Below, piece by piece: positions 1,431-51,127 of a DNA stretch of 64,000 bases. Positions within the stretch are counted from its first letter, which is position 1. Each line of letters begins with the position of its first letter. The notes below the pieces were generated by a model. That model worked only from the letters and a program-made list of their open reading frames with translations. It did no database searches and was not told where the DNA came from. Source of the DNA: Xylanimonas allomyrinae (GTDB lineage Bacteria; Actinomycetota; Actinomycetes; Actinomycetales; Cellulomonadaceae); NCBI RefSeq assembly GCF_004135345.1, contig NZ_CP035495.1:620001-684000 (forward strand), in the 5' to 3' direction. Made by a program: the position numbers and the translations under genes.

Positions 1431-2507
1431 ATGTCTGCTCCTGCCGAGCCCCTGCCCGAGGGCCCGAGCCCCCTCGACGTCGCCGCGCTCGACGCCGTCG
1501 TCGCCAAGGCCCTCGCCGACATCGCGGCGGCGGGTGACCTCGACGCCCTCAAGGCCGCGCGCACGCTGCACACCGGCGACCGCAGCGCGCTCGCGCTGGC
1601 GAACCGCGCGATCGGCGCGCTGCCCGGCCCCGACAAGGCGGCCGCGGGCAAGAACCTCGGGCCGCGCCGCGGGAAGGTGGCCCAGGCGATCACGGCCCGG
1701 CAGGCCGAGCTCGAGGCCGAGCGCGACGAGCGGGTGCTGCTGGAGGAGGCCGTGGACGTCACGCTGCCGACCGGTCGCAGGCCCGCGGGGGCACGGCACC
1801 CGATCGAGGCGATCCAGGAGCGCATCGCGGACTTCTTCCTCGGCATGGGCTGGGAGATCGCCGACGGCCCCGAGGTCGAGGCCGAGTGGTTCAACTTCGA
1901 CGCCCTGAACTTCGGCCCCGACCACCCAGCCCGGCAGATGCAGGACACGTTCTACGTGTCGCCGACGGACCAGGGCGTCGACAGCAACCTCGTGCTCCGC
2001 ACGCACACGAGCCCCGTGCAGGCGCGGTCGCTGCTCGCGCGCGGCGTCCCGCTCTACGTCGCCTGCCCCGGCAAGGTGTTCCGCACCGACGCCCTCGACG
2101 CGACCCACACGCCGGTGTTCCACCAGGTCGAGGGTCTCGCGATCGACAAGGGGCTGACCATGGCCAACCTGGTCGGCACGCTCGACGCGTTCGCGCGCGC
2201 GATGTTCGGCCCCGAGGCCAGGACGCGCCTGCGCCCGAGCTTCTTCCCCTTCACCGAACCGTCGGCCGAGATGGACCTGTGGTTCCCGCAGAAGAAGGGC
2301 GGCGCGGGCTGGATCGAGTGGGGCGGCTGCGGCATGGTCCACCCCAACGTGCTGCGCGCCACCGGCGTCGACCCCGACGAGTACCAGGGCTTCGCGTTCG
2401 GCATGGGCATCGAGCGCACGCTGATGCTCCGCCACGCGATCGCCGACATGCACGACATCGTGGAGGGCGACGTGCGCTTCTCCACCCAGTTCGGGACGGA
2501 GATCTGA
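1431..2507 (+). CDS. pheS: Phenylalanine-tRNA ligase alpha subunit
   Basis: A 358-residue class II aminoacyl-tRNA synthetase subunit that, as an alpha2-beta2 enzyme with PheT, charges tRNA-Phe. The N-terminal about 100 residues form the coiled-coil tRNA-binding arm. The catalytic core follows, with [19 protein letters not shown] (motif 1 region), [32 protein letters not shown] (motif 2 region) and [18 protein letters not shown] (motif 3) at the C-terminus. Length is normal for bacteria. A purine-rich GGAAGG sits 5-10 nt before the ATG. The stop codon overlaps the start of pheT (TGATG), so the two subunits are translationally coupled. Confidence 0.97.
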
Positions 2508-5118
2508 TGCCCCTCGTCGTCACGGAGTGGCTCGCCGACCACGTCGAGCTTCCGCAGGACCTTACCGCCGAGCAGCTCGCGGCCGCCCTCGTCAAGGTCG
2601 GGCTGGAGGAGGAGGCGATCCACGCGGCGAAGGTCACCGGACCCCTCGTCGTCGGCCGCGTGCTGACGCAGGCCAAGGAGCCGCAGAAGAACGGCAAGAC
2701 CGTCAACTGGTGCCTCGTCGACGTCGGCCCCGAGCACAACGCCACGGCGATCAAGGGTGTCGATCCCGCAGACGTCCCCGCAGGTGGCGCGCGCGGCATC
2801 ATCTGCGGCGCGCACAACTTCGGGGTGGGTGACCTCGTCGTCGTCGCGCTGCCCGGGACGGTGCTGCCCGGCCCGTTCCCCATCGCCGCACGCAAGACGT
2901 ACGGCCACGTGTCGGACGGCATGATCTGCTCGCAGCGCGAGCTGGGCCTGGGGGAGGACCACGACGGCATCATCGTGTTGCCGCGGCTCGGCTTCGACGC
3001 CGCCGCGCTGACGCCCGGCCAGGACGCGATCACGCTGCTGGGCCTGGGCGACGAGGTGCTGGAGATCAACGTGACCCCCGACCGCGGGTACGCGTTCAGC
3101 TATCGCGGCGTCGCGCGCGAGTTCGCGCACTCCACGGGCGCACGGTTCACCGACCGCGGCCTGGCCGAGAACCTGCCCGCCGCGCCTCCCGTCGCTACCG
3201 GGGACGGCTTCGCCGTCGACGTCGACGACGCCGCGCCGATCCACGGCGTCGTCGGGTGCGACCGGTTCGTCACGCGGGTCGTGCGCGGCATCGACCCCAC
3301 GGCGGCCACCCCGGCGTGGATGAAGCGCCGCCTGGAGGGTTCGGGCATGCGCTCGATCTCGCTCGCCGTCGACGTCACCAACTACGTGATGCTCGACCTG
3401 GGCCAGCCGCTGCACGCCTACGACCTCGACCAGGTCGCCGCCCCGATCGTGGTCCGCCGCGCGAACCCCGGCGAGCGCCTCACCACGCTCGACGACGTCG
3501 ACCGCGCGCTCGACACCGGGGACCTGCTCATCACGGACTCGCCCTCGGGCGAGCGCGCGAGCCGCGTGCTCGGCATCGCGGGCGTCATGGGCGGCGCGTC
3601 GTCCGAGGTCACGGACTCCACGACGGCGGTGCTCGTCGAGGCCGCCCACTTCGACCCGACGACGGTCGCCCGCAGCGCGCGCCGCCACAAGCTGCCCTCG
3701 GAGGCCGCCAAGCGATTCGAGCGCGGCGTCGACCCGCGGCTGCCCGCCGTCGCGGCGCAGCGCGTCGTCGACCTCCTGGTCGAGCACGGCGGCGGGGTCG
3801 CCGACCCGGCCGTGAGCGACCTCGACGCGACCACCGCGCCCGCTCCGATCACGCTGCCGGTCGGCCTGGCGACGCGCGTGGCCGGCGTCGAGTACGCGCG
3901 CGAGCGGGTCGTCGGCATCCTGGAGGAGATCGGCTGCGCCGTGGCCCCCGGGCCGGACGCGGACACCGTCCAGGTCACGCCGCCGACGTGGCGACCCGAC
4001 CTGACCGAGCGCGTCGCGCTGGTCGAGGAGGTCGTCCGCATCGCGGGGTACGACCAGGTGCCGTCGACCGTGCCGGCAGCACCGGGCGGCACGGGCCTGA
4101 CCGCCGAGCAGCGCACGCGCCGCTCCGTCGCGCGCGCGCTCGCCGAGGCGGGCCTCGTCGAGACCCTCAGCTACCCGTTCGTCGGCGAGGCCGAGCTCGA
4201 CGCGCTCGGGCTGCCGCCGGGCGACGCGCGCCGCCGCGCGCTGCGGCTGGCCAACCCGCTCGCCGACGACCGGCCGCTGCTGCGCACGTCGCTGCTGGCC
4301 ACGCTGGTCGAGACCGCACGCCGCAACGTCGCCCGCGGCCTGCCCGACGTCGCCGTCTTCGAGGTCGGTCTGGTGACTCTCCCGGCACCTGGCGCCCCGC
4401 GGCCCCGCAGCTGCCGGTCGGCGTGCGCCCGTCGGACGACGAGCTTGCGGCGCTCGCGGCTGCCGTCCCGGCCCAGCCGCGCCACGTGGCCGGCGTCGTG
4501 ACCGGGCGCCGCGACCATGCCGGCTGGTGGGGTGCGGGCCGTGACGCCGACTGGGCGGACGCGATCGAGCTGGCACGCCTGGTGGCTGCGCGGGCCGGGG
4601 TCGAGGTCGACGTCGTCCCCGCCACCGACGTCATGCCGTGGCACCCGGGCCGCTGTGCGGCCCTCGTCGTGGCAGGGGGGCGCACGCCCGAGCGCGTCGT
4701 CGGCTACGCGGGCGAGCTGCACCCCAAGGTCGTCGAGCGCGCGGGGCTGCCACGGCGGTCCGTCGCGTTCGAGGTCGACCTGTCGGCGCTGGTCGACGCC
4801 GCCTCGGGCGATCCGGTCGAGGCGGCCGCCGTGTCGGCGTTCCCGGCCGCCAAGGAGGACTTCGCGTTCGTCGTCGACGCCGCGGTTCCTGCCGAGACGG
4901 TGCGTTCCGCCGTCGTGGCGGGCGCGGGCGACCTGTTGGAGGACGTCAGCCTCTTCGACGTGTTCACCGGCGAGCAGATCGGCGCGGGCAAGAAGTCGCT
5001 GGCGTACTCGGTGCGCCTGCGCGCGGCGGACCGCACCCTGACGGCCGACGACGTGCGTGCCGCCCGCGACGGCGTCGTCGCGCAGGCCGCGCAGGTCGGG
5101 GCCACGCTGCGAGGCTGA
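2507..5118 (+). CDS. pheT: Phenylalanine-tRNA ligase beta subunit, single-base frameshift near 4396
   Basis: Large subunit of PheRS: N-terminal tRNA-binding OB fold (GPLVVGRVL..., about residues 45-155), B3/B4 editing domain (about 210-400), B5 domain, class II-like core, and a C-terminal anticodon-binding RRM-like domain with SAFPAAKEDFAFVVD. The first frame reads through FEVGLVTLPAPGAP (to about 4395) and then becomes nonsense. The correct continuation (AAPQLPVGVRPSDDE...) is in the next frame and runs to 5118. Adding one C to the CCCC run at 4394-4397 restores an uninterrupted 870-residue protein of normal family length. Since PheT is essential, an undercalled homopolymer is more likely than a real mutation. 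Starts by overlapping the pheS stop and is followed by a strong terminator. Confidence 0.93.
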
Positions 5119-5123
5119 GCGGA

Positions 5124-50779: not shown

Positions 50780-50786
50780 CCACGCC

Positions 50787-51127
50787 GTGACCCTTCAGTA
50801 CGCCTGCGGCGTCGCCGACCTCGCCCCGAGGAGGCCATGCTCGTCGAGCTCGACGGGCTCGACGGCGCGGCCGTGCCCGTCGCCGTCGTGCGCGACGGCG
50901 ACGGCGGCTACCACGCGCTGAGCGACATCTGCTCGCACGGGGCGGTCTCGCTGTCCGACGGCGAGGTCACCGGCTGCCTCGTCGAGTGCTGGCTCCACGG
51001 CTCGCAGTTCGACCTGCGCACCGGCAAACCCGTCCAGCTCCCCGCGATCAAACCCGTGCCCGTGTACCCCGTGACGATCGACGGCGAGAACGTCCTGGTC
51101 GACGTCGACGCCCCCGTCACCTTCTGA
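50787..51127 (+). CDS. Rieske-type ferredoxin of the SUF cluster, single-base frameshift near 50826
   Basis: A small [2Fe-2S] Rieske protein with the ligands in CSHGAVSLSDGEVTGCLVECWLHGSQFD (C-x-H ... C-x2-H). The GTG at 50787, 7 nt after sufD, begins MTLQYACGVADLAP; adding one C to CCCC at 50824-50827 continues EEAMLVELDGLDGAAVPVAVVRDGDGGYHALSDICSHG and gives 113 residues, the family length. Without correction only a shortened frame from ATG 50837 (96 residues) would be called, missing the first beta strand but keeping all metal ligands. It probably supplies electrons during cluster assembly. Confidence 0.85.

Follow-up and report, generated by a model that had tools for sequence, protein, structure and literature searches.

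The eight broken genes in the window, a stretch of 64,000 bases (bases 620001-684000 of contig 1, C1), are very probably errors of the assembly consensus, which are spread over the whole genome, with about one in every 10 kb of coding sequence, and would stem from single bases dropped in G- or C-rich runs. Such a loss would have occurred when bases were called or the consensus was built, and would leave an intact gene as two overlapping frames. The genome (G000) comprised 3,848,642 bases in two contigs and the GC content of the window was about 73%. Each break was compared with three relatives of the same genus, G002, G008 and Xylanimonas cellulosilytica (G010), with which the window had a common gene order over most of its length, up to about 54 kb. 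The ArgD protein of the window was 86-89% identical to that of five same-genus genomes. Among named genomes its nearest matches were in Xylanimicrobium (now Xylanimonas) pachnodae (86%) and other Promicromonosporaceae, in a set from which the window's own record may be missing, and the source is an actinomycete of the Xylanimonas type.

All eight genes were on the plus strand and occupied two frames. In pheT (phenylalanyl-tRNA synthetase beta, 2507-5118) the frame changed near 4392-4397, with the upstream frame ending in a stop at 4499, and in tyrS (tyrosyl-tRNA synthetase, 17287-18545) it changed near 17990-17995, with a stop at 18019. The PheT profile was accordingly split over two frames (5-578 and 587-798), as was the TyrS profile (3-237 and 233-400). 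A HAD-type hydrolase (26642-27657) had Hydrolase_6 in one frame and Hydrolase_like in the next, with the change near 27103-27107, and nadK (NAD kinase, 29163-30151) changed frame near 29364-29367. A second MurJ/MviN-family gene (34655-36735) did so in its C-terminal part, near 36437-36441. In a BTAD-domain (SARP-type) regulator of about 1100 residues (39306-42610) the change was near 39570-39575, and in a Rieske-type ferredoxin adjoining the suf genes (50796-51127) it was close to the start, near 50824-50827. The remaining gene (24445-26645, change near 25502-25513) had earlier been labelled TPR and has Arg/Asp/Gly-rich repeats at its N-terminus and is conserved in its C-terminal part; neither of its pieces matched any Pfam family. 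Its N-terminus (24445-25600) was a long array of GGDRREGG-like repeats, and similar arrays, differing in length, were found in the relatives' copies of the gene. A second break in this gene, suggested near 25427 by codon use, was rejected as the repeat array stays in frame 1 up to the known site.

According to the original prediction each gene is one base short at a G or C run, and this was confirmed in all eight cases. The frame breaks were present in the sequence, and at every site G002, G010 and G008 were one base longer and their gene was unbroken, and the base missing from the window lay at a G or C run or next to one. Frameshift-aware alignment of one relative protein per gene with the window DNA recovered exactly one frame change in each gene, always -1, near positions 4395, 17990, 25502, 27105, 29365, 36441, 39571 and 50827. 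No stops were present among the aligned codons of the eight genes, the tail of the nadK alignment overrunning the gene's own stop at 30151. Overall identity to the relatives' proteins ranged between 66 and 92% and was kept high on both sides of each break. The predicted whole number of codons in each corrected gene was judged only from two open frames tiling the relatives' proteins.

A cell without PheT, TyrS and NadK should not live. The losses of pheT, tyrS and nadK had been expected to be lethal, and profile searches in 11 genomes of the genus agreed with this, recovering all three as sole copies in G000. Family-level PheT matches in G000 were limited to the two window pieces. For TyrS, one weak match (26 bits, below the cut-off) was found in addition to the two window pieces, and it was present in several relatives too. 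Two other weak matches to NadK, one of them above the cut-off, were a diacylglycerol-kinase-like gene and a phosphofructokinase. The lethality argument fails for the murJ gene of the window, because another MurJ-family gene, in which no break was seen, is located elsewhere (C1:1251359-1252936), and the loss of the window gene need not matter. The gene outside the window had a better score than the window gene and no stop inside its match, in a search in which no match exceeded the family's own cut-off. The window "murJ" is thus a second MurJ-family gene. The Rieske break corresponded to residue 14 of the relative's protein. Within about 15 bases downstream there is an in-frame ATG, which might give rise to a slightly shorter protein.

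The genes could be considered to be truly broken in the strain, as pseudogenes of a degenerating or hypermutable lineage or of a laboratory population. The shifts do stand in the deposited sequence, and several of the affected genes may be dispensable (the regulator, the second MurJ and the N-terminus of the Rieske protein). However, the sole copies of pheT, tyrS and nadK are among them, -1 shifts are in excess while +1 shifts are not, and identity to the relatives is high on both sides of each break, making this explanation very improbable. We infer that the genes of the living cell are intact. The base lacking in each gene of the deposited record is almost certainly an error of sequencing or assembly, and the breaks should not be counted as gene losses.

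For a wider comparison, 580 kb of G000, including the window, was set against 660 kb of G010 and 500 kb of G002. A plain count of the relatives' ORFs matching two frames was dropped, as the relatives were flagged against each other too, with false two-frame matches arising from shadow ORFs on the opposite strand and from misplaced gene starts. It was replaced by an approach in which one gene per locus was subjected to frameshift-aware alignment and a fixed filter for high-confidence shifts, which demanded 18 or more aligned residues with an identity of 60% or higher in both flanks. Before the flank filter, events of every kind were common in the relatives too (e.g. 10 and 14 of the -1 type). 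With the filter, the compared coding sequence of G000, about 300 kb, yielded 31 -1 shifts, versus none in one direction and one in the other when G010 and G002 were compared reciprocally (about 414 kb). Both references revealed sixteen of the 31, a further 12 were seen only with G010 and three only with G002; one of them (C1:1062050) resembles a gene-start artefact and two others were poorly localised. There was no excess of +1 shifts (4 and 3 in G000 versus 3 and 2 between the relatives), and the filtered control comparison also retained a small number of +1, +2 and -2 events whose meaning is uncertain.

The resulting rate, 1.03 per 10 kb of compared coding sequence (95% interval about 0.70-1.47), together with eight breaks in the 64 kb window, was in line with the predicted frequency of more than one error per 10 kb or so. 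Six of the eight window sites were within the set of 31. The TPR-labelled gene (low identity) and the Rieske gene (short flank) were removed by the filter, and their breaks are supported by evidence other than this set. Shifts were not clustered in the window (window versus rest, P about 0.30), and at least one switch was found by codon statistics in six out of eight control stretches of 20 kb across the chromosome. If the rate of about 1.0 per 10 kb of coding sequence is uniform, it extrapolates to roughly 350 shifts genome-wide. The error is a property of the whole genome, with about 350 genes probably affected, and the window is not special.

A homology-free frame test, using codon statistics alone and trained on the relatives' genes, detected 41 -1 switches in 464 kb of G000, samples from other parts of the chromosome included, versus 7 in 720 kb of G010 and G002. 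The corresponding +1 counts were 6 and 11. Unlike G000, G010 had no -1 excess in this test. The test missed the tyrS and Rieske breaks. No further break in the window was backed by homology. Codon use placed a -1 frame change near 54890 on the minus strand (54734-55104), which could be a further error or chance; the ORF at this switch had no Pfam match, and nothing equivalent was present in the stretches of the relatives that were aligned. The rRNA operon, compared with those of the relatives, had single-base gaps in both directions and gave no clear signal. Elsewhere in G000, an aminotransferase-type gene (C1:1579507-1580540) was matched as two adjoining pieces, as the same error would give. 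In the single-contig assembly of the same-genus G008 (C1:2605001-2685000), three -1 shifts were found against each of G010 and G002 over about 13.5 thousand residues, and this assembly may share the error problem.

Two other features were observed towards the end of the window. At 55294-56629, beyond about 54 kb, where the window did not align with the relatives' compared stretches, an ORF with sigma-70 region 4 overlapped an ORF of Zeta-toxin/AAA_33 type. An ABC transporter ATPase, a periplasmic binding protein and a single ORF of 708 residues with two FecCD permease matches were found at 58087-62133, and from these matches the locus is a putative importer of the iron-siderophore type with fused permeases.

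Homopolymer undercalling, the cause that had been proposed, is likely, and the proposal was upheld in part. Shortening rises with run length and the relatives' bases favour true runs, but interrupted runs at four of the eight sites, the lack of depletion of six-G runs and an excess of G do not fit it. In a first set of 22 shifts, 18 were by a G or C run of at least four as read, versus 16% expected for random deletions, and 11 were by a run of five, versus 4% expected. The apparent shortened fraction, for which runs were hand-assigned at 29 of the 31 sites and the lost base was assumed to be part of the run, was 0.2% (3/1524) for a true length of four, 3.8% (14/364) for five and 22% (12/55) for six. 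Apparent shortening thus increased about tenfold per extra base, and such a rise is the behaviour of undercalling.

Another error of the assembly could give the same picture. A single C or T would be dropped inside a G-rich stretch, and the run would be a product of this loss; the lost base would most often be the third base of a glycine codon, and the process may coexist with true run shortening. In tyrS, the TPR-labelled gene, the HAD-type hydrolase gene and nadK, all three relatives had a C or T inside the run, so that for these four genes losing an interrupting base explains the break equally well. Glycine codons that were GGC in two relatives and were followed by GGN had C 124 times and G 10 times in G000, which also agrees with such a loss. 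The same can be said of six-G runs, which were not depleted in the compared coding sequence of G000 relative to the relatives. Were every shift site that reads as five G a six-G run in truth, the density of six-G runs in G000 would be about twice that of the relatives (P about 0.017). A depletion of G or C runs of six or more (76 in 464 kb versus 159 in 720 kb, P about 0.03) was considered as support for undercalling and rejected, since it was gone in the compared coding sequence.

Against the loss of interrupting bases, a longer unbroken run was present in at least one relative at pheT, murJ, the SARP-type regulator and the Rieske gene, and also at C1:585316, 609830, 876644 and 1053138. Over 22 sites, the relatives' bases favoured a true run over the loss of an interrupting base when each was taken as the single cause, with a log10 likelihood ratio of 2.6, a value based on six full versus 14 interrupted observations and treating the relatives as independent, which they are not. 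We regard the dropping of interrupting bases as a possible but rather doubtful main cause. A mixture of run shortening and interrupting-base loss is likely.

On the coding strand, 23 G runs and 6 C runs were shortened (P about 0.002), an imbalance noticed post hoc among the 29 localised sites of C1:500001-1080000 in G000. On the plus strand of the contig the counts were 21 G and 8 C. Intact G and C runs were balanced on the coding strand. The excess of G on the coding strand is not predicted by a strand-symmetric homopolymer error, and we offer no explanation for it. The dropping of interrupting bases leaves it unexplained too, because C-interrupted G runs were about as common as G-interrupted C runs.

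The bias left over by a symmetric sequencing error would be explained if the shifts were real, that is, if hundreds of G-biased single-base losses had occurred and the organism lived because the frame is routinely recovered by its ribosomes or RNA polymerase at short G or C runs. We consider this extremely unlikely. The same low probability applies to the suggestion of real breaks that the cell bridges through programmed -1 frameshifting or transcriptional slippage. All of the breaks are at or near G or C runs and are -1, so that slipping backwards would restore the frame. However, a slippery heptamer of the form X XXY YYZ was found at none of 22 sites (any phase, within 15 nt), and the runs as read were only three to five bases long in at least 28 of the 29 localised sites. 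In addition, the genes of the relatives can be read without it, and the process would have to act on hundreds of genes.

Errors of the assembly consensus, the explanation preferred here, have precedents. Sections of the papers on Kastor (PMC12007338) and Homopolish (PMC8011154) describe how homopolymer deletion errors fragment genes in long-read assemblies. The cases in those sections are similar to ours in that the errors are mostly false deletions at short homopolymers, the frames are intact in relatives and pseudogene counts are inflated. In the Pseudomonas assembly treated in the Kastor section most errors were at A/T runs (PMC12007338), whereas G and C runs were affected here, in a genome with about 73% GC. 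The finished genome of X. cellulosilytica (G010) shares the gene order over most of the window and has the eight genes intact. Its error rate is given as less than 1 in 100,000 in the relevant part of its description (PMC3035249). A literature search combining six terms found no paper, and no independent assembly of the same species was encountered.

The breaks are almost certainly an ordinary sequence artefact and not a real biological feature, and they serve as a warning to anyone who uses the record. An automatic pipeline would label several hundred genes of this genome as pseudogenes, tRNA synthetases and NAD kinase among them, and comparative studies of gene loss in the genus would be misled by the record. 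Should the shifts prove real in spite of the evidence, they would exemplify frame recovery on the scale of a whole genome.
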